A stretch of 64,000 nt of DNA from a virus. The notes under the pieces were generated by a model. It searched no databases, was not told where the DNA came from, and saw only the letters and a list, made by a program, of their open reading frames with translations. Where the stretch lies: the IMG/VR virus record IMGVR_UViG_3300008117_008517, positions 108,577 through 172,576 of that record. One strand, 5' to 3'. Position 1 is the stretch's first letter. Each line of letters begins with the position of its first letter. A program made the translations under genes and the position numbers. Positions 9,641-63,991 of this stretch are shown here, one piece after another.

Positions 9641-9643
9641 AAC

Positions 9644-9880: not shown

Positions 9881-9899
9881 AAAAATAAAATAAGAAAAT

Positions 9900-10547: not shown

Positions 10548-10569
10548 TATTAATTCTATTTTGACCATT

Positions 10570-10777: not shown

Positions 10778-10782
10778 TATTT

Positions 10783-16205: not shown

Positions 16206-18425
16206 TTATTTTTTGAAAGGATTATCCCATTTTCCAAGAGAAATATCATTTTTATATCTATTATTAAATTTAGATTTTCTTCTTATATCTAAAAGCTGTT
16301 TATAGTCAACGCCTTCTATAAATTCATTGTTATTTAATATTTGATCTATAAACAATCTTAGTTGACTATCACTAAGACTATCAATGTAATCTTCTATTAT
16401 TTGTCTAAACTCATTTTTTTGAAAAATGGCACACATGTCAATTATTGTCATAACAGTGTCATCATGAGATGATCCATCTGCCGCGTACTTCACATTACCA
16501 GCACTTGTTGTATGTTTGATGAAAGTAGTTATTTCTTGAATATTGATTTCATTTGTAATTATTATAGATTTGTCTTCCATTTTATCTTGATACTCTTTAA
16601 CAAGTAAATTTTTATTTTCACCGACTTTTAATCCTATTTTTTCTTCAATCGCATCAGCTCTATGTTTAAATCTGAAAAATATTGAAGAACCATAGTTATT
16701 TCGTCCATCAAATACATTTGGTAAATGAGCTAAGAGTTCATTTCCATAGGTATTGATTTCTAAAACTATTTTAACGTTTTCTGGATTGAAGTATTCAAAT
16801 GCAATCAAATAAAGAAGTTCGGATAGCTGTTGAACGGAAATTAAATTACTTCTAAAAATTCCAATCTGTTCAAGTCTTCCGAAATCGACAATAGATTTGT
16901 ATTTATGCTTTTGTTGTTCAATCAATTCACTTGGCTTTATACCAACTTTAAAAATATTCACTACTGTGCTGTCTTGACCTAGACCTTCTGCCACATCCAC
17001 TGAAATAATAATTTTATAATTTTTTCTTTGGATTGGTATGTAAATATCTTCATCTTGACACCATTTTAAATCTTGATAAGAAAATTTCAACTTTCCTTCA
17101 AACTCATCAATATTTTCCCACTCATAAAGTTTTTTACCTCTTGTCATCTCATCAATCAAGGTCTCACTTAATAAGCTTCTTGATGAGTTTATGAACCTAA
17201 GATCATATTCTTGATTAAAAGCTTCTTCACCACCTATATCTTTAATAGTTTCCTTTTTCCAAGTTGTGATGTCTGAAAATTCGAGTAGCCTAATTTCGTT
17301 AAATGATTCCGCAAGTAAGTCTTCCTCTGAACAATCACTGTTGTTCAAGGTCGTTATTACCCATTTTTTTAATTCATCATTATATTTTAAACTATGTTCG
17401 TTCTTTGGGTATTGTTGTTTTAAGTAATTTAGTAACTCCTCTTTATCAATATCTAATTCTTTAACTTTCTTGGGATTAAGTCTTATATAAGTAGAAAATC
17501 TTTTTGGCACTTGCCACCAATAAACCCTTTTAGCCATATATGATGATTTTTCCCCTTCTGGCTTTTCGGCCTCGGTTAATAATTTGTGAAATAGATTAAA
17601 ACCATTAGGAGTAGATGTTATAATAATTTTAGAATTTTCTATGTTTGACACAGTTGGAAAAACAGATTTATAAAACTTATCAGCTATATTATCTGGTAAG
17701 TAAGCAAACTCATCTAGATATAAAAAGTCAGCAGTTTGACCAATAGAGGATGTTTTTGTAGTCGCGAAGCCTTTGATCCTACTTTTATTTTCAAAAACCA
17801 TAAATTTTTGATTCCAGTTAATTATTCCTTGTTGTAAGAAAAAGGGTAGTCTTTGATAAATTTCTCTTATTTTATCCAAAACTTCAACAGCTGTATCCAA
17901 TTTATTAGCAGTCACAAGAACATTCTTGTTATTATTAAAAAGAACATAATGTAGCATCATTATTGAAGAACAAATCGTATTATGAGATAGAATTCCGTTT
18001 GTATAAAGTCTGTGATTACGATGATCAACAGTTGCATCAAACATAGATGTTTTGAATTTTATCTTTTGCACACTTATTACCTTTTCTTCTCCAGTTTGAG
18101 TTTGTAGAATATCACCAACTTTTAGCTCTTTTACGAATATTTCCTTGAAATTACTACCAAAAACTATATGATTGTCTGCACTCTCTAAATGAAAATTACT
18201 CGTTTTAACTACCCAATGAGTGTATGGTTGTGTGAGATGTATTTTTGATACGGGTTCGTATCCAGTATCACTTAAAACCTTCAAGTTACTTGTGTTTAGA
18301 GAATTAATAATCTTTTTTGATATATCATCCTCATTTAGACTTGTACCTCTATACTCAATTTTTTCTATAAATTGAATCAATGAATAAAGTAATTTGATTG
18401 TTACTGATTTAAAAAATTTAAACAT
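16206..18425 (-). CDS. terL: Terminase large subunit, C-terminal part preceded by the C-half of a split intein
   Basis: 739 residues. Residues 1-149 are a C-intein: block-B-like ESADNHIVF (81-89), block F MFDATVDHRN and the splice end NGILSHN (143-149). The C-extein begins T150, which completes the Walker A motif GK|T begun by the neighbouring gene. It then carries Walker B FLYLDE (D238, E239) and nuclease acids in SVDVAEG (about 477), LEINTYG (about 555) and SSHDDTV (about 653), as in T4 gp17. The mature spliced protein would be 112 + 590 = 702 residues, a normal TerL length. TerL drives ATP-powered DNA packaging and headful cutting at the portal. It lies 77 bp from the N-part gene on the same strand. 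Confidence 0.9.
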   Translation of the reverse strand: MFKFFKSVTIKLLYSLIQFIEKIEYRGTSLNEDDISKKIINSLNTSNLKVLSDTGYEPVSKIHLTQPYTHWVVKTSNFHLESADNHIVFGSNFKEIFVKELKVGDILQTQTGEEKVISVQKIKFKTSMFDATVDHRNHRLYTNGILSHNTICSSIMMLHYVLFNNNKNVLVTANKLDTAVEVLDKIREIYQRLPFFLQQGIINWNQKFMVFENKSRIKGFATTKTSSIGQTADFLYLDEFAYLPDNIADKFYKSVFPTVSNIENSKIIITSTPNGFNLFHKLLTEAEKPEGEKSSYMAKRVYWWQVPKRFSTYIRLNPKKVKELDIDKEELLNYLKQQYPKNEHSLKYNDELKKWVITTLNNSDCSEEDLLAESFNEIRLLEFSDITTWKKETIKDIGGEEAFNQEYDLRFINSSRSLLSETLIDEMTRGKKLYEWENIDEFEGKLKFSYQDLKWCQDEDIYIPIQRKNYKIIISVDVAEGLGQDSTVVNIFKVGIKPSELIEQQKHKYKSIVDFGRLEQIGIFRSNLISVQQLSELLYLIAFEYFNPENVKIVLEINTYGNELLAHLPNVFDGRNNYGSSIFFRFKHRADAIEEKIGLKVGENKNLLVKEYQDKMEDKSIIITNEINIQEITTFIKHTTSAGNVKYAADGSSHDDTVMTIIDMCAIFQKNEFRQIIEDYIDSLSDSQLRLFIDQILNNNEFIEGVDYKQLLDIRRKSKFNNRYKNDISLGKWDNPFKK
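17979..18425 (-). other. C-terminal half of split intein (149 residues)
   Basis: Residues 1-149 of the terminase C-part. It contains the block B His (SADNH), a block F His and the terminal His-Asn, followed by Thr as +1 nucleophile. The hydrophobic-basic start (MFKFFKSVTIKLLYSL) may mediate association with the N-half. No homing endonuclease domain is present. Confidence 0.85.
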
Positions 18426-18502
18426 GATTTTTTTTATATTTTTTCATTATTATCTCAAATAAATCATTTATCTTCCTATCAAGTTGGGAAACGTTTTAAA
18501 TA

Positions 18503-19003
18503 TTATTTATCGAGAAGGTATATAAGGTCGTAAATTTTTATTTTTATTTTTTCTAAAATTGTTAATTTTCTTTGTCTCGATAATATATAGTAATATAATT
18601 TTCCAAATCTTATCTCTAATAACTCATCATTTAATCCAACAAAAACCTTCGTATTAAAGGAAAAACACTTACCAATCTGACGACTTGCCATAAGTATATT
18701 AAATCTATTATTAAAGAAGTTATCTAGTATTTCTTTTTGATAATCTCTTAGAGGTATTATAATTGGTTGACCTTCTTCTCCTTTGATGTAACAATATGTT
18801 GACGCGAAGTAGTGAATGTCGAGTGCACACCTAATATACTCTTCTTGCTCTTCAGGTGACATTTTGAAAACAAGTCCTGATGTTCTAAGACCCACTACCT
18901 TTTCAAAAAATGGATTTTCTAATCTACTGAGTACAAATCCATTATTTATTCGCTCAGTAGCATCTTCAATCATTTTTGAATCCCAAATAATTTGCCTAGA
19001 CAT
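18503..19003 (-). CDS. terL: Terminase large subunit, N-terminal part followed by the N-half of a split intein
   Basis: 166 residues. Residues 1-112 are the TerL N-extein: adenine-binding-type segment PLRDYQKEI (84-92), then MASRQIGK (105-112), which is Walker A lacking its final Thr. Residue 113 is the intein Cys1 in CFSFNTKVFVG (block A), and the intein half ends at residue 166 with a basic helix and a stop. The frame differs from that of the C-part, and 77 noncoding bases separate the two genes, so this is a true two-gene arrangement rather than a single frameshift. It is divergent from a possible small-terminase gene at 19066. Confidence 0.88.
   Translation of the reverse strand: MSRQIIWDSKMIEDATERINNGFVLSRLENPFFEKVVGLRTSGLVFKMSPEEQEEYIRCALDIHYFASTYCYIKGEEGQPIIIPLRDYQKEILDNFFNNRFNILMASRQIGKCFSFNTKVFVGLNDELLEIRFGKLYYYILSRQRKLTILEKIKIKIYDLIYLLDK
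18506..18667 (-). other. N-terminal half of split intein (54 residues)
   Basis: Residues 113-166 of the terminase N-part, starting with Cys1 and block A. Block B is not in this half but in the C-half, so the split lies earlier than in DnaE-type inteins. The tail is Lys/Ile-rich. Confidence 0.85.
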
Positions 19004-30609: not shown

Positions 30610-32304
30610 ATGTTTATGAATTTAGATATTTTTAGAAACCCGGATCCATCGGGAAAACTGTACAAAGAATCTTTTTTATATAAAAATTTTCCAGAAGAAT
30701 ATAATTTTATTGTTTCATATTGTGATATCAATAAAATAGTAGATATTAGTTTTAAGGAAAAAGTTTATCTCGTTTTAAATGAATTGAAGTCAATACCAGC
30801 TTGTAAAAATTCAAATTGTAATAATAGAGTTAAATTTAAAAATTCAACGATTGGGTACTTGAAATATTGCTCGAAGAAGTGTGTTTCGGACGACCCAAAT
30901 ATAAAGAAGATCAAAGAAGAGAAATCAATATCTAAATGGGGTACAAAATCTCCTGCTCAGTCACAAGAGATAAAAGATAAAATCATAAAAACTAATCAAG
31001 AGAAATATGGTCATAATTCACCTATGAATTTAAAATCAATTCAAGATAAATCAATGCAAACTTTAATCAAAAATTGGGGAGTTGAAAATCCAAGTAATTC
31101 TAGTGAGTTATTGCAAAAAAGAATTGAATCTTTTAAATCAAGTTCATTTAAAGATACTTTTAAATTAACATCATTAAAGAGATATGGAGTTGAACATCCA
31201 TGGAGAAATAAAGAGATTCACTCAAAAACGATTTCTCATTTCTATGATGATTATGTTGTTAGAATAAATAGTAAAATAAACACTAATGAGTTTGTTTTTT
31301 TAGGTTTTGAAAAATCGATATCTACACATCTACTATTTAAATGTTGTAAGTGTGATCGGAATTTTAAAATATTAACATACCAATTCTATTATAGAATTAA
31401 TTCTGGTCTTAGTATTTGTACTAACTGCTTTCCTATTTCTGAAAATTCTTCAATATCACAGATCGAGGTTTATAATTTTATCAAAGAAAATTACGCCGGT
31501 GAGATACTAGTTGATGATAGATCTTCGATAAAACCCTACGAGATAGATATATTTCTTCCATCACTAAACATTGGATTCGAATTCAATGGATTATGGTGGC
31601 ACTCATCTAAATATAAAAATGAGAACTATCACTTGGTTAAAAGAGAGGTTGCAAGTTCTAATAATATAAAACTTTTAACTATATGGGAAGATGATTGGAC
31701 TATCAAACGAGAGATTTGCAAATCATTTATTCTTAATAAGCTTAATAAATCAACAAAAATTCCAGCAAGAAAATGTGAGATTATAGAAATAGATTATAGT
31801 TCCTCAAAGGCCTTTTTAAACGAAAATCACTTTCAAGGTGATTGTAAATCTTCTATTAGAATTGGTTTATTTTATCAAGGAATTTTGGTATCTCTAATGA
31901 CATTTTCAAAATTAAGACTACCATTAGGAGGTAGACACAGAGAAGGAGTCTATGAATTAACTAGATTTTGTAATAAAATTTTTACTACTGTTGTTGGTGG
32001 TTCTTCTAGGTTGTTAAGTTACTTTTTAAAAAAGTATGATCCATTGTCTATTGAAACCTATTCTGATAATATGATTTCAGACGGTAATATGTATGATAAA
32101 TTAGGATTTTCATATCAACACACATCATCACCGAGTTATTGGTATGTAATTGATCAAAAAAGAGAAAATCGTTTTAATTGGAGAAAATCAAGATTGAAAA
32201 AAATTGGTGGTGATATGGATAAGACCGAGCAACAAATTATGGAGGAATGGGGATTTTATAGAGTTTATAATGCTGGTAATAAAAAATGGATATTGACAAA
32301 ATAA
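30610..32304 (+). CDS. Homing endonuclease, EDxHD/Vsr-like
   Basis: 564 residues. N-terminal zinc-finger-like Cys pairs (CKNSNCNN near 70, CSKKC near 90) are followed by several K-[YW]-G-V-E-[NH]-P repeats typical of DNA-binding modules in phage homing enzymes. The catalytic part has YEIDIFLPSLN, FEFNGLWWHSSKY, a conserved His-Leu-Val-Lys and TIWEDDW, matching the EDxHD family with a Vsr/PD-(D/E)xK fold. Such enzymes nick or cut intronless or cognate alleles and spread themselves. It sits as an independent unit between sheath and tail-chaperone genes with terminators on both sides. A second Met at codon 3 may be the start. Confidence 0.82.
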   Translation: MFMNLDIFRNPDPSGKLYKESFLYKNFPEEYNFIVSYCDINKIVDISFKEKVYLVLNELKSIPACKNSNCNNRVKFKNSTIGYLKYCSKKCVSDDPNIKKIKEEKSISKWGTKSPAQSQEIKDKIIKTNQEKYGHNSPMNLKSIQDKSMQTLIKNWGVENPSNSSELLQKRIESFKSSSFKDTFKLTSLKRYGVEHPWRNKEIHSKTISHFYDDYVVRINSKINTNEFVFLGFEKSISTHLLFKCCKCDRNFKILTYQFYYRINSGLSICTNCFPISENSSISQIEVYNFIKENYAGEILVDDRSSIKPYEIDIFLPSLNIGFEFNGLWWHSSKYKNENYHLVKREVASSNNIKLLTIWEDDWTIKREICKSFILNKLNKSTKIPARKCEIIEIDYSSSKAFLNENHFQGDCKSSIRIGLFYQGILVSLMTFSKLRLPLGGRHREGVYELTRFCNKIFTTVVGGSSRLLSYFLKKYDPLSIETYSDNMISDGNMYDKLGFSYQHTSSPSYWYVIDQKRENRFNWRKSRLKKIGGDMDKTEQQIMEEWGFYRVYNAGNKKWILTK

Positions 32305-47929: not shown

Positions 47930-49486
47930 ATGATTGTAAACGAATCCATAATTGTAAAGGGTCATCCAAGAAATTTGTCTTTTTATAAAAAATTAGGATA
48001 TGATATAGAGGTTGGTAAAGAGTGTGAAGTTCTAACAACTCACTTAACACCGGGTTCACCAGTAAAAATAGACTGTAAATGTGATAATTGTGAATCTATA
48101 ATTTCTATGGAATTTAGATTCTACTATTCTTATACTCAAGGATTTAAAGAATCTTACTTTTGTGTTTCTTGTAAAGGGATAAAGTCTAAAAGTACGAATA
48201 TTGAAAAGTACGGAGTTGATAATCCAATGAAGTCAGATGTAGTAAAAAACATCTTGAAAGAATCCGTTTTAAAAAAATATGGAGTTGAACACTACTCAAA
48301 AACTGAGGAGTATAAAAATAAGTACAAAAAAACCTGTTTACATAAGTATGGTGTGGATAATGTGTCAAAGTCAGAAGAAATAAAAAAACAGATCTCAGAA
48401 ATTAAATTCAAACAATTAAATTCAATAGAAAAGTTTAGAAGTTCACTCTCTGATGAATATGAGGTTTTAGATTACACAATTGATAGAAATTTTAAAATAT
48501 TTCATAAAGTTTGTAGTTCTGAATTTACAATTTTTATTGGAACATTAAATGATAGAACTAGAAATAATAACATCATTTGTACAAACTGTAACCCAGTAGA
48601 CCAGTTGGTTTCAGGTAGAGAAATTGAACTAAGTCAATTTTTGAAAGAATGTGGTGTCGAATTTATATCTAATTCTTATGAAATAATACCACCAATGTCT
48701 CTTGATGTTTTTATACCAAGTTTAAATTTAGCTTTTGAATTTAACGGTGTTTATTGGCATTCTGAAATTTATAAAGATAAATATTATCATTTAAATAAGA
48801 CAAAAGAGTGTAATAAAAGAGGAATATCGCTTGTACATATATGGGAAGATGATTGGGTATATAAAAAGGAAATAATTAAGTCAATTATTTTAAATAGAAT
48901 TTCTAAAATTAGTAATAAAATCTATGCCAGACAGTGTGAAATTAGAGTTGTTAAAAGTCCGAAAATAGTTAGAGAATTTTTAAATCAAAATCATATACAA
49001 GGATACAGTAATTCAAGTATAAATCTAGGTCTATTCTATCAAGACGAATTAGTCAGTCTAATGACATTTGGAAAGAAAAGAAAAGATACAGAATTAGTTA
49101 GATTTTGTAATAGAATAAATTTATCAGTAGTCGGAGCCTCTTCAAAGCTTTTTAAGTATTATATTAATAATTATGAATATTCAATTATAGAATCTTTTAG
49201 TGACTCTTCTATTTTTACAGGTGATATGTATGATAAATTAGGATTCAAATTTGTGCACGACACTCAAGTTAATTACTGGAGAGTTGTCGATGGGGTTAGA
49301 AAACATAGATTTAATTTTAACAAAAAGAGACTTGTTAAAATGGGACATGACTCAAATTTATCAGAAAATGAAATATTACAGAATCTTAAATACTGGAGAA
49401 TCTGGGGATGCGGACTTAAAAAGTGGATCTATCGAAAAAATGACACTCAAAATCAAACTATATCAGTTGATTCAATTAGAGTGTAG
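47930..49486 (+). CDS. Homing endonuclease, EDxHD/Vsr-like
   Basis: 518 residues, clearly related to the enzyme at 30610. N-terminal part: GHPRNLSFYKKLGYDIEVGK, then Cys-x-Cys-x-x-Cys zinc-type motifs (near 44-50 and 75-82). Middle: three K-Y-G-V-[DE]-[NH] repeats. Catalytic part: S-L-D-V-F-I-P-S-L-N, FEFNGVYWHSE, His-Leu-Asn-Lys and HIWEDDW. C-terminal part: N-Q-N-H-I-Q-G ... M-T-F-G-K and Y-D-K-L-G-F blocks also shared with the first. It sits right behind the late sigma gene. Its last 34 bp overlap the convergent transpeptidase-like gene. Confidence 0.82.
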   Translation: MIVNESIIVKGHPRNLSFYKKLGYDIEVGKECEVLTTHLTPGSPVKIDCKCDNCESIISMEFRFYYSYTQGFKESYFCVSCKGIKSKSTNIEKYGVDNPMKSDVVKNILKESVLKKYGVEHYSKTEEYKNKYKKTCLHKYGVDNVSKSEEIKKQISEIKFKQLNSIEKFRSSLSDEYEVLDYTIDRNFKIFHKVCSSEFTIFIGTLNDRTRNNNIICTNCNPVDQLVSGREIELSQFLKECGVEFISNSYEIIPPMSLDVFIPSLNLAFEFNGVYWHSEIYKDKYYHLNKTKECNKRGISLVHIWEDDWVYKKEIIKSIILNRISKISNKIYARQCEIRVVKSPKIVREFLNQNHIQGYSNSSINLGLFYQDELVSLMTFGKKRKDTELVRFCNRINLSVVGASSKLFKYYINNYEYSIIESFSDSSIFTGDMYDKLGFKFVHDTQVNYWRVVDGVRKHRFNFNKKRLVKMGHDSNLSENEILQNLKYWRIWGCGLKKWIYRKNDTQNQTISVDSIRV

Positions 49487-50132: not shown

Positions 50133-51170
50133 ATGAAAAAAATTGCACTTATCACTGGAATCACGGGACAAGATGGTAAATACTTAGCTGAGTTACTATT
50201 GTCTAAAAATTATATTGTTCATGGAATTAAAAGAAGAAGTTCCTCTTTTAATACATCAAGAATAGACCATCTTTATGAGACACAGAGAGAGTCATTTTTC
50301 TTACATTATGGAGATCTCACTGATTCAACTAACCTGATTAGAATTATTCAAGAAGTTCAACCAGATGAAATTTATAATCTCGCCGCACAATCACACGTTA
50401 AGGTATCTTTTGAAACTCCCGAATATACTGCAAACGCTGATGCTATTGGAACCCTTAGAATTTTAGAGGCAATAAGAATTTTGGGACTTGAAAAAAAGAC
50501 TAAGTTTTATCAAGCCTCAACTAGTGAAATGTTTGGTTTGGTACAAGAAATCCCTCAAAAAGAAACTACACCATTCTATCCTAGAAGTCCTTACGGGGTG
50601 GCAAAATTATACTCACATTGGATTACTGTAAATTACAGAGAAGCTTATGGAATTTTTGCTTGTAGCGGCATACTATTTAATCATGAGTCTCCACTAAGAG
50701 GAGAGACATTTGTAACAAAAAAAATCACACAAGCTGTTGCTAAAATAAAATTAGGACTTGAAGATAGATTGCTACTTGGAAATCTTTCAGCTGAGAGAGA
50801 TTGGGGCCACTCAAAGGATTATGTTGAAGGTATGTGGCTTATGATGCAACATTCAAATCCTGACGACTTTGTTTTATCTACTGGTAAAAAAATATCAGTT
50901 AGAGATTTTACTACTATGGCTTTCAAATTTGTAAATATAGATATTGATTGGCAAGGATCTGGAATTGACGAGGTCGGTGTTGATAGAAAAACAGGTAAAG
51001 TTCTAGTTTCAGTTGATGAGAGGTATTTTAGACCTACCGAAGTTGATCTACTTATAGGAGATTCAACTAAAGCGTATGAAGTACTTGGTTGGAGACCAAA
51101 GTATGAAGTAGAGGAGCTTTGTAGAGAAATGGTTGAGTATGATTTGAAGTATTTTCAATCAAACAAATAG
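50133..51170 (+). CDS. gmd: GDP-mannose 4,6-dehydratase
   Basis: 345 residues, the usual length. It has the NAD(P)-binding loop GITGQDG (9-15), D-L-T-D-S (71-75), the NLAAQSHV block (82-89), the catalytic T130 and E132 in ASTSEMFG, and Y154-x-x-x-K158 in [22 protein letters not shown] and the [12 protein letters not shown] segment are family signatures. It converts GDP-mannose to GDP-4-keto-6-deoxymannose, the step before GDP-fucose or GDP-rhamnose-type sugars. In a phage it may alter host surface sugars or decorate virion proteins. All key residues are present. No partner epimerase or reductase is in the window. Confidence 0.93.
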
Positions 51171-51508: not shown

Positions 51509-51807
51509 ACTTTTACTTCTTTTTAGTTACTATTTATTATATTTTTTCTAGGAATCGTCTTTTGACTGATGTTAAAAATAGAAATTATACAAATAGATTA
51601 CTAGTTATCCTCGATTCGGTTTATTTCGCATCGATGATATTATACTTCGGATGGGTAGTATTTTTATTTTTTACAAATTTCTGGTTAGGAGCTACTCTAT
51701 CACTTCTATTAGTGGTTAGATGGTTCTTTTTAGATCCATTTAATATGAGAAGGGATATTCTTTATTGTATCATTAAAATGTGTACACTTTGTCTTATTAG
51801 AGGTTGA
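51505..51807 (+). CDS. Small membrane protein
   Basis: 100 residues with a hydrophobic N-terminus (about 1-14) and two strong membrane segments (about 33-55 and 58-72), joined by basic loops. The last residues overlap the convergent head-completion gene by 11 bp. No family was recognised. A holin would fit the size and topology but nothing else supports it. Confidence 0.55.
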   Translation: MNFYFFLVTIYYIFSRNRLLTDVKNRNYTNRLLVILDSVYFASMILYFGWVVFLFFTNFWLGATLSLLLVVRWFFLDPFNMRRDILYCIIKMCTLCLIRG

Positions 51808-52330
51808 ATCTTTTAAGGTGATCTTCAGTTATGATTATAAAATTCCATCCTTTTTTTTCACAGTATTTAATCATCGTTTTCCATTTCTCACTGTTTTTTT
51901 GAGCCATTTTTAGATCGTACTCAAAATTTTTTAATTTCTTTATCGAACTTTTAGAATCAGGTACTTGAAGTTTTTTTTCTTGTAGACTCAAAACCATTTT
52001 ATATTCTTTCATCGGTTTCACTTCAGCAATTACCTTTTTAGTAATTCCCTCTCCTTGTTCTATTTCATAATAAAAGTCTGGATAATAATTGTGACTTTTA
52101 ATTCTGATATCACCTTTATCATAATGGGTTAATTGATATGGAATTGTGATACACTCTGAGCCCCACTTAACTATTTTATCATTAGCATCTAACCAAGTCA
52201 TTATTTTCAATTCCCAAGAACTTCTATAATAAACACCACCTTGAGAATTTAATTTTAAGACTTTTTGAGTGTGTGTTGGAATGAAATTTCCTTGATGGTA
52301 GTTACTATTTTTGGGTGCACTGTTTAACAT
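51797..52330 (-). CDS. Head completion nuclease (T4 gp4-like)
   Basis: 177 residues from the ATG at 52330; an in-frame ATG at 52348 would overlap the divergent start codon and is judged less likely because the promoter box lies between. The order G-N-F-I-P-T, YRSSWELKIMTWLD, WGSECITIPY, YYPDFYYEIE and IAEVKP, with N-S-E-K-W near the end, matches the T4 gp4 head-completion family. The E-x-x-x ... D ... E-x-K residues form a PD-(D/E)xK-type nuclease site. It acts on filled heads before tail joining. It shares a 16-bp divergent start region with the next gene. Confidence 0.85.
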   Translation of the reverse strand: MLNSAPKNSNYHQGNFIPTHTQKVLKLNSQGGVYYRSSWELKIMTWLDANDKIVKWGSECITIPYQLTHYDKGDIRIKSHNYYPDFYYEIEQGEGITKKVIAEVKPMKEYKMVLSLQEKKLQVPDSKSSIKKLKNFEYDLKMAQKNSEKWKTMIKYCEKKGWNFIIITEDHLKRFNL

Positions 52331-52332
52331 CC

Positions 52333-52343
52333 TAATATATATT
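52333..52343. promoter_or_regulatory. Palindromic bidirectional late-promoter candidate
   Basis: taatatatatt contains the perfect palindrome aatatatatt and fills the 16 bp between two divergent ATGs (52330 minus, 52347 plus), 2 nt from one and 3 nt from the other. Confidence 0.55.
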
Positions 52344-52346
52344 GAC

Positions 52347-53042
52347 ATGGGTGCTCTACAAGAAAGGATAAAACTTAATCAGAAAGTTTTTGGTAAAAAT
52401 ATAGTAGATTTTTATAAGAGTAATGTGATTTTTATGGTTGATAAGTATTCAAAATCTGATGATATGTGCACTGCAATCTCTATTTCTGATATAACTACTG
52501 GTAGATTTTATTTTTTTCACTATCAAGATCCTTCAAATTGGATGAAATACTCACCGGTTTTTGTTGTGGGATTTAAACAAATTAGAGACTTGAAAATTAT
52601 TCTTGCATTGAATTTCAATTTCATACCACTTGAAATAAGAGCTGGTATTTTTGATAAATTTATTATAGAGAGGAATTTTAAAGACGATGATAGTTTAGAG
52701 GTAGATTTTCAGGGAGTTTATAGAGAATTACTAAAATTCGGATTTGAATATTCAATAGTTGAATACAACGCTATACAATTGAATTTAGTTCATCAAATTA
52801 ATTTAGAACTATTACCAAGATTTTTATATTCATCACATCCTAAAAATACATATGATCCGAATAAACTTATGGAAATATGGACTAAGAAGTTAGAAACAAG
52901 AAAAGAAAGACACGAAGAAATGATGTCAGCTATATTGTCTGAATTTTACGATGTTACTGGTGCAATATCAGAGAAGTATGAACAATTAGAATCACATATA
53001 AAAAGACTTCAAAATAGTTTAAATAAATTCATGAACAAATAA
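52347..53042 (+). CDS. Hypothetical structural-type protein next to the head-completion gene
   Basis: 231 residues from the ATG at 52347. Residues about 40-105 read FVVGFKQIRDLKIILALNFN and FIPLEIRAGIFDKF after F-Y-F-F-H-Y, a pattern seen in uncharacterised T4-like proteins. The last 60 residues are a coiled coil. T4 places wedge and DNA-end-protector genes next to gene 4, so a head or baseplate role is possible, but no homology to those proteins was seen. Confidence 0.55.
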   Translation: MGALQERIKLNQKVFGKNIVDFYKSNVIFMVDKYSKSDDMCTAISISDITTGRFYFFHYQDPSNWMKYSPVFVVGFKQIRDLKIILALNFNFIPLEIRAGIFDKFIIERNFKDDDSLEVDFQGVYRELLKFGFEYSIVEYNAIQLNLVHQINLELLPRFLYSSHPKNTYDPNKLMEIWTKKLETRKERHEEMMSAILSEFYDVTGAISEKYEQLESHIKRLQNSLNKFMNK

Positions 53043-53079: not shown

Positions 53080-54117
53080 ATGAAAACAATTTTTCTTGAA
53101 TATATCTGGTTAGACGGTAATTACCCACAAAGACTAAGATCGAAGACTAAGATCGTAGAAGTTAAAAATGAAGATAAATTGAAATTATCAAATTGGGGTT
53201 TTGATGGATCATCTACTTCACAAGCTGAGACTTCTAAATCAGAAATGGTTCTTGTTCCTGTAAATAAGTTTAAAGATCCATTCAGGGAAAATGGCTACTT
53301 CGTAATGTGTGAAGTGTATAATACAGATATGACTCCTCACTCTACTAACAAGCGATACACTCTTTCTGAGACTGTAGAAGAGTCTGATGAAGAAACACTC
53401 TATGGTTTTGAGCAAGAGTACATAATTTATGATAATAAAACCGGAAAACCACTTGGATGGCCTAAAGATGGGTTTCCAAGACCACAAGGTGACTATTATT
53501 GTGGAGTTGGTGGTAATAATGTGTCTGGTAGAAAATTTGTCGAAAAACACGCTGAGTATTGTATAAACGCAGGTTTGAATTTTACTGGAATTAATGCTGA
53601 GGTAATGCTTGGACAATGGGAATATCAAATCGGTCCGGTGAAAGCACTTGATGGTTCGGATCAACTTTGGATTTCAAGATATATTTTAGAAAGATTATCA
53701 GAAGAATTTGATTATTCTATTGAGTTTCACCCTAAACCTTATCAAGGAAACGACTGGAATGGAAGTGGAATGCATGTCAACTTTTCAACATCAGATATGA
53801 GAAAAAACTTCAAAGAAAAGAAAAAACTAATTGTTGAAGCTTGTGAGAAACTAGGTAAATCAGTAGAGAACCATATTAAAGTTTATGGAGTTGGAAATGA
53901 ACTTAGACTAACTGGTACTAATGAAACATGCTCTATAAATCAATTTAAATATGGAATTGGTGATAGAACCGCGTCAATTAGAATTCCTTTCTCAGTTACT
54001 GATGAAACAACTCCGGGATATCTAGAAGACAGAAGACCAGCATCAAACGCAAATCCATATGAAATTTGTGATGTTATGATAAAAACAATCTGTGTTGGTT
54101 CAGAAGTTGGAATTTAA
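53080..54117 (+). CDS. glnA: Glutamine synthetase, type II (GSII)
   Basis: 345 residues, normal for GSII. Signatures in order: NWGFDGSSTSQA (about 38-49), YGFEQEY with the metal-binding Glu (about 108-114), AEVMLGQWEYQIGP (about 168-181), DWNGSGMHVNFST (about 227-239), GNELRLTG (about 272-279), SIRIPFSV and YLEDRRPASNANPYE near the end. Every metal- and substrate-binding motif is intact. It makes glutamine from glutamate, ammonia and ATP. In phage-infected cells this could support nucleotide synthesis or change nitrogen signalling. A strong terminator follows; base use looks like that of the neighbours. Confidence 0.93.
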   Translation: MKTIFLEYIWLDGNYPQRLRSKTKIVEVKNEDKLKLSNWGFDGSSTSQAETSKSEMVLVPVNKFKDPFRENGYFVMCEVYNTDMTPHSTNKRYTLSETVEESDEETLYGFEQEYIIYDNKTGKPLGWPKDGFPRPQGDYYCGVGGNNVSGRKFVEKHAEYCINAGLNFTGINAEVMLGQWEYQIGPVKALDGSDQLWISRYILERLSEEFDYSIEFHPKPYQGNDWNGSGMHVNFSTSDMRKNFKEKKKLIVEACEKLGKSVENHIKVYGVGNELRLTGTNETCSINQFKYGIGDRTASIRIPFSVTDETTPGYLEDRRPASNANPYEICDVMIKTICVGSEVGI

Positions 54118-55908: not shown

Positions 55909-56277
55909 CTAAACTTCTTCAGAAGTTTTTCTTTTTTCAGAAATAGTTTGCTTCATTTTTCTGTAGATTCTTTTATTCTGAATCGGATATTCAACTCCAT
56001 AATTTTTTTGTAGAGTTTCTTTTCTTTTATACTCTGAGCATTTTCTACAATAATAAATTCCAAACTCGTTACCGTATTTTATATAATTTTTAAAAATAAC
56101 TTTTTTTACTACTCCACATCCATCGCACTGACAGTCAATTTTTTGATGAGAACCCTTTGATAAAAGATCTATTGGAATAATAATTTCGTCTCCTATTGAA
56201 ATATCATATCCTAAATTTTCGAAATAGTGAAAATTTGATTCAGAAATTTTTATTGTTATCTCTCTATTAAGAATCAT
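55909..56277 (-). pseudogene. Truncated homing endonuclease remnant
   Basis: 122 residues. The N-terminal domain parallels the enzyme at 47930 residue by residue: F-x-x-L-G-Y-D-I-x-I/V-G, then K-I-D-C-x-C-D-x-C, a second Cys pair (YYCRKC) and N-Y-G-V-E-Y-P. It stops after a basic segment and lacks the whole catalytic EDxHD part. It ends 9 bp from the portal stop and sits between portal and protease genes. It may be a decayed element or a retained DNA-binding domain. Confidence 0.7.
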
Positions 56278-56431: not shown

Positions 56432-58654
56432 ATGAAATCAGTTCTTATTGTTGAGAATTCTATGAATTCTCTGAATATCTCAGAGAGTAACAATAAGGAA
56501 GATCAATTTGTTTTAGGTGGTATTTTTACAGAATTCGATGTAAAAAATCGAAATGAAAGAGTATATACTGCTGACAGATTTCTTCCTTGCCTTCAAGAGT
56601 TAAATGAGAGAATAGAATCTATGGGTGTTGTATATGGTGAGTTTGATCACCCAGATGTATTTGATACTTCACTTTCAAGAGCTTCTCACATTGTAACTAA
56701 GGCACATTATGTTAAAGAAAATAACAGAGTAGAAGGTGAGATTAGATTACTTAATACTCATTGGGGAAAAGAAGCTAAGGCTCTAGTTGGAGATAACTGT
56801 CCAATATTCGTATCATCAAGAGCTGCTGGAATAACTGAGTCAGACGGTACAGTAACACTTAAAAAATTATTTACTTACGATATTGTTGCTGATCCTGGAT
56901 TCGCATCTGCAAAAATGAATGTTAAGATACTTAATGAATCTTTAAATTATTCAAATAACGCTAACTTTAGGATATATGAAATGTCCGATGAGTCAAAAAT
57001 AAACGATCTATTTAATATGAACACTAACGATTTGGTGACAAAACAACAATTGACTGACTACTCTCAGTATTTGGTCAATGAGTTAGCTTCTACTAAGAAA
57101 GAAGTTCGTAACGCTATCAAGAAGGGTAATTTAAATCCTAAAAAATTGGAGCAGTTACTTGAATACTATGAGAATTTGAATGAGACTAATTCTCAAATTT
57201 TAAAATATTTAGATTATTTGGCTGAGAAAGTACAAATAGTTGTAAATGAAAACACAGATTTGAAAAACACTGCTGACAGATTGATTAAACATAGTGATTA
57301 CTTGGCTGAAAATTTAGAAAAAGCAATCAACTATACTGAGTATGTTGCAGAAAATCTTGATAAGAATATTGAGTATTCTGAATATATCGCAGAAAATTTG
57401 GATAAGAACATTTCTTATGCTGAATATATCGCTGAGAATTTAGATAAGAATATTTCTTATGCTGAATATTTGGCTGAAAACTTAGACAAAAACATCGCAT
57501 ATTCAGAATATCTTGCAGAAAATTTGGACAAGAACATCGCATATTCAGAGTATATCGCTGAGAATTTAGATAAGAATATTTCTTATGCTGAATATTTGGC
57601 AGAGAATTTAGATAATTCTATCGCATACTCAGAGTATCTTGCTGAGCATGTGGAAGGTAATATCGCTTATTCTGAATATATCGCAGAGAACTTAGATGAC
57701 AACATTGCTTATTCAGACTATATCGCAGAAAATCTTGACAAATCAATTTCTTATCAGAGTTTGATTGTTGAGAAATTAAATGGTGGTAAATTGTTCGAAA
57801 GTAACGAAGAAGAAGAAAGACTTCCACTTTTGAATGTTGTTGGTATTAATTCATATGAAGAGGAAGAAGAGGAAGAAGGTGATAAGTATGGTGAAGGTGA
57901 AAACTGGAACGACTCAGCTGAATCTCCAACTTCTGAAGAAACACCACAAGTAGGTGAATCAAATGATACCGAAGAACATCTAGTAGTTGCAGAATCTAAT
58001 GAAGCTGAAGAGACTCAATCAGAAGCTGAAGAAACTCAGTCTGAAACTGAAACTCAATCAGAATCTGAAGAAACTCAGTCTGAAGCTGAAGAAACTACTG
58101 GTGAGACAGAAGAAAAAAGATACGAAGGTAATTCTGATTCAGAATTATCACAATCTATTGATAAATTGATCGAAGAAGCTAAAAAACGTAAAGCTACTGA
58201 AACATCCGATCTACATTTCCTAACGTTTTTAACAAAATCTCAGGTTGATAGCTACTATTCTTTGACAAACGAAGAACAAGACGCTGTTAAACTTTACATA
58301 AGCGAAAAAAGTTTCTTTACACAAGTTGATGTGTTGAGATTAATATCTGAGGCTTTAACTGCTAAAAACGAATCTCTTGAAGAAAGAGTAATCAGATTGA
58401 TGCCTGAAAACATCAAGCCAATCTGGAACCAATTAAATGAGAATGCTAGAAAATCTATCTTATCACAAGCTAGATTATACCCATCTGAAGTAATGGCAAC
58501 TGATTCACAAGTTGATCACTTCTGGATGACTAGAAATCTCAAGAAAAACGAATCTGTAACTAAGAAATTAGTTTCACATGAAAGCATGATTCAAGAAGAT
58601 AGAATATCTGAAAAAGAATTGGGAGCAATCATGGAGAGATTCAAAAACTTATAA
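56432..58654 (+). CDS. Prohead protease (gp21-like) fused to scaffold core
   Basis: 740 residues. Residues about 25-165 match the T4 prohead protease (S77): GGIFTEFDVKNRNERVY, GEFDHP with H73, VSSRAAG with S128/S129 and FTYDIVADPGFASA near 148-160. The rest is scaffold-like: a helical region, 11 near-identical 14-residue units (about 289-441), a Glu/Thr-rich acidic region (about 465-570) and a helical C-terminal domain (about 580-740). In T4, protease (gp21) and scaffold (gp22) are separate genes. I-S-E at 16-18 could be a self-cleavage site. The gene lies between portal and capsid genes, as expected. Confidence 0.85.
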   Translation: MKSVLIVENSMNSLNISESNNKEDQFVLGGIFTEFDVKNRNERVYTADRFLPCLQELNERIESMGVVYGEFDHPDVFDTSLSRASHIVTKAHYVKENNRVEGEIRLLNTHWGKEAKALVGDNCPIFVSSRAAGITESDGTVTLKKLFTYDIVADPGFASAKMNVKILNESLNYSNNANFRIYEMSDESKINDLFNMNTNDLVTKQQLTDYSQYLVNELASTKKEVRNAIKKGNLNPKKLEQLLEYYENLNETNSQILKYLDYLAEKVQIVVNENTDLKNTADRLIKHSDYLAENLEKAINYTEYVAENLDKNIEYSEYIAENLDKNISYAEYIAENLDKNISYAEYLAENLDKNIAYSEYLAENLDKNIAYSEYIAENLDKNISYAEYLAENLDNSIAYSEYLAEHVEGNIAYSEYIAENLDDNIAYSDYIAENLDKSISYQSLIVEKLNGGKLFESNEEEERLPLLNVVGINSYEEEEEEEGDKYGEGENWNDSAESPTSEETPQVGESNDTEEHLVVAESNEAEETQSEAEETQSETETQSESEETQSEAEETTGETEEKRYEGNSDSELSQSIDKLIEEAKKRKATETSDLHFLTFLTKSQVDSYYSLTNEEQDAVKLYISEKSFFTQVDVLRLISEALTAKNESLEERVIRLMPENIKPIWNQLNENARKSILSQARLYPSEVMATDSQVDHFWMTRNLKKNESVTKKLVSHESMIQEDRISEKELGAIMERFKNL
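57296..57754. repeat. Eleven 42-bp coding repeats in the scaffold part
   Basis: 459 bp encode 11 units of about 14 residues of the form [SA]-E-Y-[IL]-A-E-N-L-D-K-N-I-x-Y. The 14-residue period equals two heptads, so a long coiled coil is expected. Synonymous differences between units show they are not all recent copies. Confidence 0.95.
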
Positions 58655-60541: not shown

Positions 60542-60931
60542 ATGATAAAAAATTATCAACTTTTCTTAGAATCAAAAAAAGATAAGTTTCCTAATATTAA
60601 AACCGTCAAAGTAGGTGATTTCACAGTTTTGATTGGTAAAGATTCTAAATCAAATGACTATTTAACAACTATTAAGTCACAAGACGAAGATATTTGGTTT
60701 CATGCAAAAGGCGTTCCTGGAAGTCATGTTGTGATTAAAAGTAGAGAAAGTTTGCCAACTCCAGAAATTATTGAAGAAGTTGCTAGAATTGCTGCGAAAA
60801 ACTCAAAGTCTACTGGTAAGACAAAAGTAGTTTATTGCAAGATTAAGTTTGTAAATAAAACCAGTGATATGAAAGAAGGTCAAGTTTCGGTAGATTACAA
60901 CAATGCAGATGAAATCGAAGTTGAAATTTAA
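60542..60931 (+). CDS. NFACT-R (RqcH-type) RNA-binding domain protein
   Basis: 129 residues. Residues about 23-118 form a full NFACT-R domain (DUF814): VLIGKDSKSNDYLTT (29-43), DEDIWFHAKGVPGSHVVIK (48-66), an A-R-I-A-A-K-N-S-K helix and a final G-x-V-x-V strand. In RqcH/Rqc2 and Tae2 proteins this domain accompanies the large NFACT-N part and binds the stalled 50S-nascent chain complex for C-terminal tailing; here only the R domain is present. The first ten residues (MIKNYQLFLE) resemble a capsid-targeting peptide, so the protein may be packaged. It begins a unit that runs toward the tmRNA. Confidence 0.85.
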   Translation: MIKNYQLFLESKKDKFPNIKTVKVGDFTVLIGKDSKSNDYLTTIKSQDEDIWFHAKGVPGSHVVIKSRESLPTPEIIEEVARIAAKNSKSTGKTKVVYCKIKFVNKTSDMKEGQVSVDYNNADEIEVEI

Positions 60932-60958
60932 TATATAATAAAATTAAGAACAATTTAA

Positions 60959-62299
60959 ATGTCTTTTGAAAGTGTTACATTCTTATATACAGATACTTTA
61001 CACGAAATTATAGATAATATTTCCGGACCAGTTGCTGAGGCACTGTTAAAGGCACAAGGTGATAGATTTGTAAAGAATCCTTTTAAAATTGAAGTGGTCG
61101 ATGTTTCTAAAACACATAGTAGATTTTGGGTGACTTTCAAAGATCATAAACAAAATATGAAGATTAAGGCATTTATAAATTCAATTTTGCCTAATTCATT
61201 CACCGATCATCAGATTTGGGAATTTATTCAAGAATACAATAAACTAGCACTTGGTAAAGAAACTCAAGCAGAGACTAAGGTCACTTATAATAAAATTGAA
61301 CCAAGAGCTTTTAGATTCGAACCAAAAGATATAAGAAATACATTTATCTCACTAGTAACACAGACTTATCCACACGGTCATGAAGAAGAAGTTATGAAGT
61401 TTATGCCTCAAGATCTTAGTAAAGACGAGTTTGGCAATTACTACAAAATAATAGGTAAATCTCAGACTATGTTTACTTCACATCTTGACACTGCTGACAG
61501 AACTAAAAGTTATGTTAACTTGGTGAGTGTTGAAAGAGATGGAGATGAGATAATTATGACTGACGGAACTAGTATTTTAGGAGCTGATGATAAAGCAGGT
61601 GTTACTGTTATGCTCTACATGATGGCTCATAACATACCGGGTATTTATTACTTTTTTATAGGTGAAGAAAGAGGTGGTATAGGTTCTTATAAATTGGCAG
61701 CTGCTTTTGATAAATACACTCACTTAAAAGATGTTAAAAGATGTGTTTCGTTTGATAGAAGAAACTACTTTTCAGTGATCACTAAACAATCTTATAGACA
61801 ATCCTGTTCAGACGAATTTGCGCAAGCTTTAGCTGACGAATTAAATAAGTCAGGACTTAGTTTATCACTCGACCCAACTGGTATTTATACTGATTCGGCT
61901 TCATTTATTGATGATATACCAGAATGTACAAATGTATCTGTTGGTTATTTCAGTGAACACACAACAAAAGAGTGTCAAAATATTTCATACCTTGAAAGAT
62001 TAGCAAAAGCCTGTCTATCTGCAAATTGGGAAGAACTTCCAACTGTTAAAAAAGTAGGCTTTGATGAAGAAATTTTAAGGAAGTATAAAGGATTCTTAGC
62101 TGAATTAAAGGCAAATGTATTTAATTTAGAAGTTAGAATGGTCAATGATTTTGGAGATGCTATAATTAAAATAGAAATAGAACCAGATTTAGAATTGGTT
62201 TTTGAAGAGCTAAAAATAATAAGCAGACTACTTACAAAACATAAAATGGACCCAGATGTCACATTTGATAATCAATATATTAAAATAAATTTAAAGTAA
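60959..62299 (+). CDS. Zinc metallopeptidase, M20/M28/M42-like
   Basis: 446 residues. The di-zinc peptidase pattern is clear: SHLDTADR (His and Asp, about 173-180), LGADDKAG with the bridging Asp (about 206-213), GEERGGIGS with the Glu-Glu pair (about 233-241), SFDRR (about 262) and a late GYFSEHTTKE with the last His (about 335). About 110 N-terminal residues are a separate domain. Such enzymes trim peptides or act as aminopeptidases in the cytoplasm. Located between the NFACT-R gene and the tmRNA. The next gene overlaps the stop by one base. Exact family (M20, M28 or M42) cannot be fixed by eye. Confidence 0.8.
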   Translation: MSFESVTFLYTDTLHEIIDNISGPVAEALLKAQGDRFVKNPFKIEVVDVSKTHSRFWVTFKDHKQNMKIKAFINSILPNSFTDHQIWEFIQEYNKLALGKETQAETKVTYNKIEPRAFRFEPKDIRNTFISLVTQTYPHGHEEEVMKFMPQDLSKDEFGNYYKIIGKSQTMFTSHLDTADRTKSYVNLVSVERDGDEIIMTDGTSILGADDKAGVTVMLYMMAHNIPGIYYFFIGEERGGIGSYKLAAAFDKYTHLKDVKRCVSFDRRNYFSVITKQSYRQSCSDEFAQALADELNKSGLSLSLDPTGIYTDSASFIDDIPECTNVSVGYFSEHTTKECQNISYLERLAKACLSANWEELPTVKKVGFDEEILRKYKGFLAELKANVFNLEVRMVNDFGDAIIKIEIEPDLELVFEELKIISRLLTKHKMDPDVTFDNQYIKINLK

Positions 62300-62748
62300 T
62301 GAAGTTTAATACAATTAAATATAGTAAAATATCAATATCTGAGGCGTCTAAAGAACCTTGGGAAGATGATTATGCGGATTCTTATGAAGATAGATATGAT
62401 AAATATGGAACTTATGGTCGAGATTTTTATGATGATGCACCAGAAGAAATAGAAGAGGATGATCAGAAAGATAATATCTCCTACGAAATAAGAAAAATTT
62501 TGTCTTTATATGGTATAGTAGGCGAAGTTGAATTTGAAGAAAAATATGGTCTCTCTATAAGAATATACTTAAAGAAAAGAGAGAAAATGAGTAATATTAT
62601 TAAAATAATGGATACTGTTATTAATAAAGTAAAAAAACAAATATTACCACAGTATGAATCTGAAGTTGAGCTATATGAGACTACAAAAGGTCAGCCGGTC
62701 CTAGAATTTGATTTTTACCTTTTATCTGATAGCGAATCACCATTTTAG
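62299..62748 (+). CDS. Small acidic protein with capsid-targeting-like N-terminus
   Basis: 149 residues. The start MKFNTIKYSKISISEASKE contains I-S-E before Ala, a good prohead-protease-type site. Residues about 20-60 are rich in Asp, Glu and Tyr and probably disordered; the rest (about 65-149) is a compact alpha/beta domain. No family was recognised. The start overlaps the peptidase stop (taATG), so translation is coupled. Confidence 0.55.
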   Translation: MKFNTIKYSKISISEASKEPWEDDYADSYEDRYDKYGTYGRDFYDDAPEEIEEDDQKDNISYEIRKILSLYGIVGEVEFEEKYGLSIRIYLKKREKMSNIIKIMDTVINKVKKQILPQYESEVELYETTKGQPVLEFDFYLLSDSESPF

Positions 62749-62760
62749 AAAAAACTTTGC

Positions 62761-62791
62761 TTGACATTTAATATATAACTCACTATATTTG
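62761..62791 (+). promoter_or_regulatory. tmRNA promoter: host-type TTG-N20-TAnnTTTG plus embedded late box
   Basis: TTG at 62761 is followed after 20 bp by TATATTTG (62784-62791), an exact fit to the Bacteroidota housekeeping -33/-7 pattern; read as sigma-70 it is TTGACA-N17-TATATT. A TTAATATATAA late-type box (62768-62778) lies inside the spacer, so both programmes could drive the tmRNA. Confidence 0.65.
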
Positions 62792-62808
62792 TAGAAATTA
62801 TTTTACAT

Positions 62809-63185
62809 GGGGATGAACTTGAATTGATTCGCAGGGTAAAGATGATTAAGCAGGCATCGGTTTGGTAAAGTCCGATTAAAATAAATTATCAAAACAAGTA
62901 AACGGCAACGTTTCTAACGAAGTAGGAACCAGTGAAGATTTAGTAGCTGCTCTACAAAACAACTTGCTCACTGTGAATGAGCTTGAAGTAGCCTAATCTT
63001 AGGATACATTCTAAAAATTCACACTGAATCACAACAGTATAAATAGTGATAGTTTTTTGTTAGAGTGTTTTTGAGTCGAAACAACTAAATATTTTGTAAG
63101 TTAAAGAAAGAACTTTCTAAGCTTGTGAACGATTAAGCATTTCTAACTGAGGAAGACCCCGTAGCGAAAACGGGCATCTCCACCA
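62809..63185 (+). ncRNA. ssrA: tmRNA (transfer-messenger RNA)
   Basis: 377 nt. The 5' end ggggatgaacttgaattg and attcgcaggg follow the tmRNA start pattern. ggggatg (62809-62815) pairs with catctcc (63175-63181) as a 7-bp acceptor stem with one G-U, followed by A and encoded CCA (63183-63185). A 5-bp T-arm (cccgt/acggg) closes the loop agcgaaa, which departs from the usual TTCGAAT-type loop. Between them lies a long mRNA-like and pseudoknot region. tmRNA rescues ribosomes stalled on broken mRNA and adds a degradation tag. A terminator follows at 63219. Phage-borne tmRNAs are known in large phages; SmpB would come from the host or another part of the genome. Confidence 0.85.
62904..62996 (+). 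other. Predicted tmRNA tag reading frame (30 codons)
   Basis: After aagtaaac, the context of Bacteroidota resume codons, the frame ggc aac gtt tct runs 30 codons to taa at 62994-62996. The tag would start GNVSNEV and end NELEVA. Most tags are 8-15 residues ending LAA. An internal D-L-V-A-A (codons 12-16) resembles a usual tag end without its stop. The resume codon is inferred. Confidence 0.55.
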
Positions 63186-63218: not shown

Positions 63219-63247
63219 ACACCAACCATAAGGTTGGTGTTTCTTTT
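63219..63247 (+). terminator. Terminator hairpin after tmRNA
   Basis: acaccaacc (63219-63227) pairs with ggttggtgt (63232-63240), then ttcttttttt-type T-run. A smaller tctaaaga/tctttaga hairpin (about 63195-63215) lies between it and the tmRNA 3' end. Confidence 0.88.
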
Positions 63248-63991
63248 TTAATATATCTTAATTATTTTATCTGACTTGTTGTATATTGAATTTACTAATA
63301 CAGTTAACCACTTTTCTTTATCTTTTCGATACAAATCGTCACTTATTCGGACTATTCTCCAGTCGTTACCTATTACCCATTCTTCTAATAATCTATCTTT
63401 GGCTTGTTTTTCTTCTAATTGTCCGTATATGTCTTTGAAGTGCCAAATTCCGTCGTATTCTACTATCACTTTAAGATCATTTGAATAAATATCTCTTGTC
63501 AAAATTGTCTCTTTATATTTAAATCCACCTCCTGATGTCCATTTATGTATTTTATAATTTTCTTTCAGATAATTTTTAATTTCTTCTTCGCCTTTTGATG
63601 TGAACCTTTTGTTTCTATTGGTATTGTTTCTTATTATTTTATTTGCATATTCTTCATTTTTCCACAGATTTTTACTAGAATCAGATATTTTCTTTTTTGT
63701 CTCAATTGAAGATCTTGATTTAGAACAAGAGTCAGAGCAAAAAAATCTATTTTTTCTTTTTCTAAATTTACTACTGACTTCGTTTATTTTAAATTCCTTA
63801 CCACACGTATTGCACGAAACATCGTGTTCTACAACTAATCTGTTTTTCTCATAATATTTCTTTTTTGCCTCTGATATTTTATTACCTCCTTTATCTCCAT
63901 TTGTGGTGTTTTTATCACACCATCTTACATGATTCGCATATATAGAGTGTATACCTTCTATTTCTTTGTTACAATATTTACAAACTTTCAT
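63248..63991 (-). CDS. Homing-endonuclease-like protein with zinc fingers and Vsr-like nuclease fold
   Basis: 247 residues. Two zinc-finger-like units open the protein: C-K-Y-C ... H-x-x-x-x-x-C (3-25) and C-N-T-C ... C-S-D-S-C (about 60-90). A basic linker follows, then a C-terminal domain with VIVEYDGIWHFKD (about 173-185) and W-R-I-V-R-I-S-D-D (about 212-220), as in Vsr/DUF559-type free-standing phage endonucleases. It is convergent with the tmRNA gene. The start is 10 bp from the window edge, with tATATATG-like context. Confidence 0.72.
   Translation of the reverse strand: MKVCKYCNKEIEGIHSIYANHVRWCDKNTTNGDKGGNKISEAKKKYYEKNRLVVEHDVSCNTCGKEFKINEVSSKFRKRKNRFFCSDSCSKSRSSIETKKKISDSSKNLWKNEEYANKIIRNNTNRNKRFTSKGEEEIKNYLKENYKIHKWTSGGGFKYKETILTRDIYSNDLKVIVEYDGIWHFKDIYGQLEEKQAKDRLLEEWVIGNDWRIVRISDDLYRKDKEKWLTVLVNSIYNKSDKIIKIY

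Follow-up and report, generated by a model that had tools for sequence, protein, structure and literature searches.

The 64,000-nucleotide stretch of viral DNA described here, referred to as the window, covers positions 108577–172576 of IMG/VR virus record IMGVR_UViG_3300008117_008517, which is 172,576 bases long and probably represents part of a far bigger phage genome. Between positions 60542 and 63185 the window carries, all on the plus strand, the genes for a stand-alone NFACT-R domain protein, a zinc peptidase, a small acidic protein and a divergent transfer-messenger RNA (tmRNA). From homologues in the same place and from covariation, the tmRNA can be regarded as certainly genuine, and the gene content of the window and its relatives makes it probable that the block forms the late-gene portion of a largely private trans-translation system encoded by the phage. 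The closest named relatives are LR745206 (634,780 bases) and LR756502 (642,428 bases); phages that large were assigned in the huge-phage survey to the Mahaphage clade, with Bacteroidetes as the predicted hosts (PMC7162821). A reading made earlier from the sequence of the window, the original prediction, had placed an NFACT-R domain, a zinc peptidase, an acidic protein and a tmRNA in this block, and all four were found where it had put them. It did not have the long tag lacking an AA end, SmpB, ClpP, ClpC, the tmRNA promoter or the T4-like N-terminal signal.

The tmRNA gene and its tag

The tmRNA gene (62809–63185), in which the CCA is encoded, is matched by the Rfam model RF00023 with 28 bits (E 1.7e-9), which is below the curated cut-off of 47 bits though the match is full-length, and it was not called by ARAGORN. 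Homologues in the same place were first seen in L004, LR745206 and LR756502, and nhmmer found homologues in 141 of the 159 sequences searched, the window included, which gave 68 distinct full-length tmRNAs. The homologous tmRNA of the relative G006 scores 65.3 bits, above the Rfam cut-off, and is called by ARAGORN too; it is because of homology to this member, together with covariation, that the gene is assigned to the tmRNA family.

The 5' strand of the acceptor stem, GGGGATG (62809–62815), holds G3 of the G3-U70 pair; the 3' strand, read directly from the sequence, is CATCTCC followed by ACCA (63175–63185), and pairing between the two strands was compared in 67 sequences. All seven pairs are formed in 66 of the 67, pairs 5 and 6 showing compensatory changes, and the G-U at pair 3, the G3-U70 identity element for alanine, is present in every one, as part of a tRNA-like domain that also has A73. 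The T arm, CCCGT-AGCGAAA-ACGGG (63158–63174), is a covarying stem, perfect in 63 of 67 sequences, that has a derived form in most relatives, with a 6-bp stem and a GGCAGUA loop. This derived arm probably explains why the gene is missed by ARAGORN. When 39 sequences were given to RNAalifold with no structure supplied, the acceptor stem, the long helix joining the two halves, the first pseudoknot stem and the T arm were recovered in a consensus of 52 pairs, 38 of which show double (compensatory) changes that keep the pair; the first was the only pseudoknot stem seen. A chance tmRNA-like match is ruled out by the homologues and the covariation. Moreover, ARAGORN misses most members of the present clade, which shows that surveys of huge phages based on this program undercount tmRNAs; it was the program used in the published huge-phage survey (PMC7162821).

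The tag frame, GNVSNEVGTSEDLVAALQNNLLTVNELEVA, spans 30 codons (62904–62993), begins at the resume codon GGC, ends at a TAA stop (62994–62996) and is kept open in 68 of 68 sequences. Its start follows the rule that an A lies four bases upstream of the resume codon (PMC2481249), usually with a U in front of it: the two bases, U at position −5 followed by A at −4, are found in 66 of the 68 tmRNAs and place the start of the window's tag at the GGC at 62904. Across the clade the tag is 27–30 codons long, with a TAA or TAG stop, and all differences in length are multiples of three. The ratio of nonsynonymous to synonymous change (dN/dS) in the tag core is 0.47 in frame, whereas the two shifted frames give 0.76 and 1.28, a modest contrast in a molecule where the RNA itself is constrained too. 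The strongest support for the frame, independent of the alignment, comes from the relative L263, in which ARAGORN calls GNTNEVGSVEDLVFALRNNILKANRLAVA with an identical start and frame.

The tag ends in A or V in all 68 sequences and in AA in none, so that it lacks an LAA-like degron end, and its middle, NEVGTREDLVAAL, is conserved throughout and helix-like. As a host control, 30 Bacteroidota tmRNAs were read; 29 encode tags of 9–10 residues ending LAA, MAA or YAA and the remaining one looks misparsed. The phage tag is thus about three times longer than that of Bacteroidota and has a different end. Published tmRNA tags range from 8 to 35 residues, so length alone is not unusual (PMC8012679). 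Long tags, each different, are also found in more distant huge phages, namely AKSKTTATQVEELEIA in the 508-kb G001 (tmRNA at G001:C1:59955-60348) and, by reading, DNVNSFEQSILNELFAPVEMAVAA in LR756504 (280507–280863) and GDYKMNAEDMMSIPTSLTGKVATESFVEDLVLA in LR756501 (718388–718731), with the ends EIA, VAA and VLA. Tag length and sequence therefore seem to diversify among huge phages. Homology of the tag to another phage protein was considered and set aside, as no tag-like stretch was found elsewhere in nine large phage records.

A promoter of the form TTG-N20-TATATTTG is predicted upstream of the tmRNA (62761–62791), on the basis of motif enrichment upstream of the tmRNAs of the relatives. The general form TTG-N18-22-TAnnTTTG, the promoter type of Bacteroidota, lies 9–26 bases upstream of 32 of 66 distinct tmRNAs, where 0.5 would be expected from shuffling. 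It thus appears that the tmRNA is transcribed as a separate unit, and the predicted promoter type fits the predicted host phylum. On the 3' side, direct reading finds a terminator-like hairpin, CACCAACC/GGTTGGTG, with a T run (63220–63249, plus strand).

Gene order and proteins of the block

How far the gene order is shared by related phages was a point raised in the original prediction, and the order capsid gene–NFACT-R–peptidase–acidic protein–tmRNA proved to be conserved. Of 80 distinct contigs bearing the peptidase, 56 have sufficient flanking sequence; among them the tmRNA is present in 53, a neighbouring NFACT-R gene in 47 and the acidic gene in 47, with all three together in 46. The IMG/VR contigs were not dereplicated and the 56 are not independent events; the 68 distinct tmRNA sequences are a better gauge of breadth. 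A few lineages have the tmRNA inverted and further downstream, or have a second copy of the peptidase inserted. In the distant relative L085 the peptidase is present with a cluster of seven tRNA genes (8205–10927) and the tmRNA is not nearby.

Gene fusions occur among the three proteins. NFACT-R and peptidase are directly fused at L082:9650-10795, where the DIWxHxKG-PGSH motif has been lost, and peptidase and acidic protein are fused in five loci (L015, L054, L055, L067 and L068). These fusions support a working link among NFACT-R, peptidase and acidic protein; the link of the three to the tmRNA is one of neighbourhood alone.

The NFACT-R protein (60542–60931) has 129 residues and matches Pfam PF05670 (NFACT-R_1) with 60.7 bits (E 2.4e-16; cut-off 29.8). 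By profile it matches residues 447–554 of Bacillus subtilis RqcH (E 2e-25). Its AlphaFold model has a mean predicted local distance difference test score (pLDDT) of 88.8, with residues 6–11 low, and Foldseek returned structures of RqcH, CCDC25 and NEMF, the best with an E of 6e-10. Superposed on B. subtilis RqcH the model gives a template-modelling (TM) score of 0.77, with 37–39% identity over the aligned fold. Neither NFACT-N, for which a Pfam scan was made, nor HhH nor the coiled-coil/M part is present in the 129 residues; the earlier claim that NFACT-R stands here without NFACT-N is confirmed by the scan and the model. In full-length proteins NFACT-N is responsible for the choice of tRNA-Ala, and the stalk base is contacted through the coiled-coil/M part (PMC8373112, PMC8012679).

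NFACT-R was matched in 91 of 118 Bacteroidota genomes, nearly always in open reading frames (ORFs) of about 500–600 residues, and the only short ORF starts 44 bases from a contig end. RqcH-like proteins are thus present in the hosts, while the stand-alone form is a phage feature. A contaminating or trimmed host RqcH is rejected, as in many phages the gene is an intact ORF flanked by the head genes of the phage and the peptidase gene. NFACT-R matches in short Listeria and Enterococcus ‘phage’ records were set aside as probable bacterial RqcH, and no claim is made for a degenerate NFACT-R in L077 (hhalign probability 1.9%). As read from its fold, the phage protein may be a 50S-binding fragment that possibly antagonises host RqcH, and the simplest role that we infer for it is to act on obstructed 50S subunits, either as a competitor or as an adaptor.

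The N-terminus of this protein, MIKNYQLFLES (60542–60574), resembles the capsid-targeting sequence of T4. The motif is found in 41 of 64 NFACT-R proteins, 46 of 67 acidic proteins and 5 of 81 peptidases. Within the window it heads 6 of 56 ORFs and follows none of 252 internal Met residues (P 3e-5), a figure that is indicative only, the motif having been chosen post hoc by eye. The form MK..(K)(F/Y)..F.E recurs on many ORFs, including those at 60542, 25599, 35801, 14086 and 10783 of the window. Such recurrence suggests a set of packaged internal proteins; T4 is known to pack internal proteins by means of its capsid-targeting sequence (PMC3012670).

The peptidase (60959–62299; 446 residues) is a PepT/M20-like zinc enzyme by its matches to phrog_4191 ‘peptidase’ (E 3.7e-66) and to the NCBIfam PepT-like model (E 7e-10). 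It also matches PepT structures, and four relatives show no variation at the residues expected for the metal site, H175, D177, D210, E236/E237, D266 and H334. As a reader of the tag it is unsupported, being widespread in phages without the block.

The small acidic protein (62299–62748), an ORF of a conserved family, has a disordered acidic N-terminal part, an alpha-beta domain from residue 53 in the model and an acidic C-terminal tip. The tip ends in PF in the window's protein and in PF or PW in 57 of 69 homologues, like the partner-binding C-terminal tip of SSB. No relative was found for it in Pfam, PHROG or the PDB, and its best fold match, to a ribosomal protein S6 permutant (E 0.004), was rejected as unconvincing.

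Rescue partners and competing explanations

SmpB is encoded in six of nine large records, the three without it being fragments of less than 250 kb that include the window's own; all the large relatives of 385 kb or more have it, as do one smaller relative and two of two further huge phages. The phage SmpBs have an intact C-terminal tail, and in the relatives the gene lies about 130–150 kb away from the tmRNA. ClpP is found in seven of the nine records, in one to three copies per genome, and in the window's own record (G000:C1:80790-81317) the expected Ser-His-Asp positions look intact. Six of the nine encode a ClpC/A-like unfoldase (AAA_2) some 710 residues long, and those of L185 and L186 combine two AAA modules with a UVR motif (Pfam AAA, AAA_2, ClpB_D2-small and UVR). 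Clp_N was found in none of the nine phage records and is present in a Bacteroides control. Unfoldases that lack it include those of L185, L186, L187 and L188, and in the first two the N-terminus is a short acidic, serine-rich stretch. Both of the ~640-kb relatives carry tmRNA, SmpB, ClpS, ClpP and unfoldase together, although co-occurrence in a single genome does not prove one pathway.

The ClpS-like adaptor (15127–15408, plus strand; 93 residues; Pfam PF02617, E 1.4e-17) lies near the terminase gene. The original prediction had placed a ClpS here: the domain is indeed present, and in all nine large records, mostly next to the terminase gene and a gene of the HAD family. It lies outside the 2.6-kb block and scores at best 40.6 bits where the NCBIfam ClpS equivalog cut-off is 117. 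Because these cut-offs are not reached, ClpS-like is the safer label. The broader suggestion of a rescue and turnover programme is strengthened by the phage SmpB, ClpP and ClpC/A-like unfoldase; the peptidase, a common phage protein with 368 phage records, is weak evidence for turnover of the tag.

The private trans-translation system would operate late in infection, when ribosomes become stuck on broken mRNAs. Carrying alanine, the phage tmRNA would enter the stalled ribosomes together with phage (or host) SmpB, the stalled chain would gain Ala and the phage-specific helical tag, and the ribosome would be released and recycled for capsid production. Tagged chains would probably leave the host SsrA route, as the phage tag is without the host AA end, and would be handled by the phage ClpC-like/ClpP pair. 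ClpS would most likely act on host ClpC or ClpA, since no phage Clp_N domain is available for docking. The NFACT-R protein most likely occupies obstructed 50S complexes and so limits tailing by host RqcH, because the fold with which RqcH sits on the 50S is kept and the parts that select tRNA and make the tail are missing; it may also be packaged and injected by way of its N-terminal signal.

Several points weigh against this account. The tag could be a variant degron for host ClpXP, as its ends are still small and hydrophobic, and the blocking of RqcH by NFACT-R is something that we infer from sequence. Nine of the 56 flanked contigs have no detectable NFACT-R beside the peptidase, and since six of these retain the tmRNA the two are not strictly linked. 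Furthermore, neither SmpB nor ClpC was found in the window's own 172.6-kb record, a fragment.

The alternative that survives best, with an appreciable though lesser chance of being right, is that the phage tmRNA supplements the host system, its tag being a degron for host ClpXP or ClpCP, its length the result of drift and the NFACT-R co-location a matter of late-operon neighbourhood. It is consistent with tags that still end in A or V in 68 of 68 cases and, in the more distant huge phages, in VAA, EIA or VLA. In E. coli, moreover, tag templates tolerate change, and ribosome release alone suffices for the growth of a tmRNA-dependent phage (PMC2481249). The absence of an AA end from all 68 tags argues the other way, as do the ClpP and unfoldase that the phages bring themselves. 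ClpX reads mainly the C-terminal end of a tag, and the conservation of the tag middle NEVGTREDLVAAL over 68 sequences consequently counts against a simple supplement.

A second possibility, which appears rather unlikely, is that NFACT-R has nothing to do with rescue and is a nucleic-acid-binding internal head protein, packaged by way of the T4-like signal and injected. The motif on 41 of 64 homologues, the adjoining capsid gene and the fold match to CCDC25-DNA complexes, stand-alone CCDC25 being a DNA-binding protein, would all suit such a role, but sequence and fold are nearer to RqcH than to CCDC25 and most loci have the tmRNA close by.

An elaborated, fully orthogonal form of the private system is less likely than not. 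Here the phage tmRNA and SmpB would write the tag of 27–30 residues, the phage's own N-domain-less ClpC-like/ClpP pair would read and destroy what carries it, and ClpS and NFACT-R would restrain host ClpC/ClpA and RqcH.

It is improbable that the tmRNA serves chiefly for ribosome release, with a tag that is non-degradative or that addresses chains elsewhere, for instance to the inside of the capsid or to some protein of the phage. The missing host AA end, the conserved helix-like middle and a gene close behind that for the capsid would be in keeping with this, whereas the C-terminal hydrophobicity of the tag is kept and nothing tag-like in the nine records offers an obvious precedent for localisation. 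Finally, a pseudogene in decay, or a decoy with no effect beyond titrating SmpB, to which the sub-threshold Rfam score, the negative ARAGORN result, the non-canonical T loop and the tRNA-like-domain-only tmRNA of phage DS6A (PMC4131195) might point, is very unlikely in view of covariation throughout, G3-U70 in 67 of 67 and the conserved open tag, resume signal and promoter.

Neighbouring genes and relation to known systems

Elsewhere in the window the large terminase is encoded on the minus strand (16206–19003) in two ORFs, 77 bases apart, with intein-like ends ASRQIGKCFSFNTKVFVG... and ...DHRNHRLYTNGILSHNTICSS. The terminase part is recognised by Pfam Terminase_6N, no Pfam intein model matched the split ORFs, and the arrangement is possibly, from its sequence, a naturally split intein. 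A head-maturation protease-like protein (56432–58654) has about ten repeats of the form YSEYIAENLDKNI, and genes for glutamine synthetase (53080–54117) and GDP-mannose 4,6-dehydratase (50133–51170) lie near the head genes. Two large DUF7487 proteins (30610–32304 and 47930–49486) are probably homing-type endonucleases; DUF7487-like fragments occur on the minus strand at 55909–56277 and at 63248–63991, the latter directly 3' of the tmRNA. A protein with a TnsA-like endonuclease domain is encoded at 51797–52348 (minus strand), and LR756502 has a similar ORF.

The phage system resembles the bacterial ssrA-SmpB system in its G3-U70 acceptor stem, A73, T arm, long helix joining the halves and pseudoknot-1 stem, as well as in the resume signal with A at −4, the stop-terminated tag and the SmpB in the same genomes. 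It differs in its tag of 27–30 codons that never ends in AA, in the derived T arm and in the position of the gene behind a capsid gene. Unlike RqcH, Rqc2 and NEMF (PMC8373112, PMC8012679), with which it shares the NFACT-R domain, the phage protein is without NFACT-N, HhH and coiled-coil/M, and neither tRNA selection nor alanine tailing would be expected of it. The stand-alone CCDC25 has a similar make-up of NFACT-R and a short extension, but is eukaryotic, is 25% identical and has been solved bound to DNA (PDB 7eof, 8woh). The two AAA modules, UVR motif, ClpP and ClpS-like protein recall ClpC/ClpA-ClpP with ClpS, whereas Clp_N, the usual dock for ClpS, is missing from the phage unfoldase. The block peptidase shares its catalytic domain and metal-site residues with the PepT/M20-like phage peptidases of phrog_4191, but has extra N- and C-terminal parts and is fused to NFACT-R or the acidic protein in some relatives. 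The short motif at the N-terminus of the NFACT-R protein, the acidic protein and others, next to T4-type head genes, is reminiscent of T4 internal proteins (PMC3012670), although packaging is known for T4 and the motif is here seen in genes alone and defined by eye.

Phage tmRNAs have already been published (PMC4131195, PMC7162821, PMC9723777), including tmRNA with SmpB in huge phages (PMC7162821) and one tmRNA listed in Mar_Mega_1 (PMC9723777). The open-access texts searched give no account of the conserved long tag, the NFACT-R synteny or the combined set of SmpB, ClpP, ClpC-like protein and ClpS.

The present family is the first stand-alone NFACT-R family known to us that is tied to a phage rescue locus. 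The purpose of phage tmRNA tags and the identity of their reader are questions on which a long tag conserved across a clade, with a working end unlike that of the host and found beside SmpB, ClpP, a ClpC-like unfoldase and ClpS, has a direct bearing. It thereby becomes directly testable with reporter fusions whether ribosome rescue, and with it what happens to the chains so freed, is made private by a phage.

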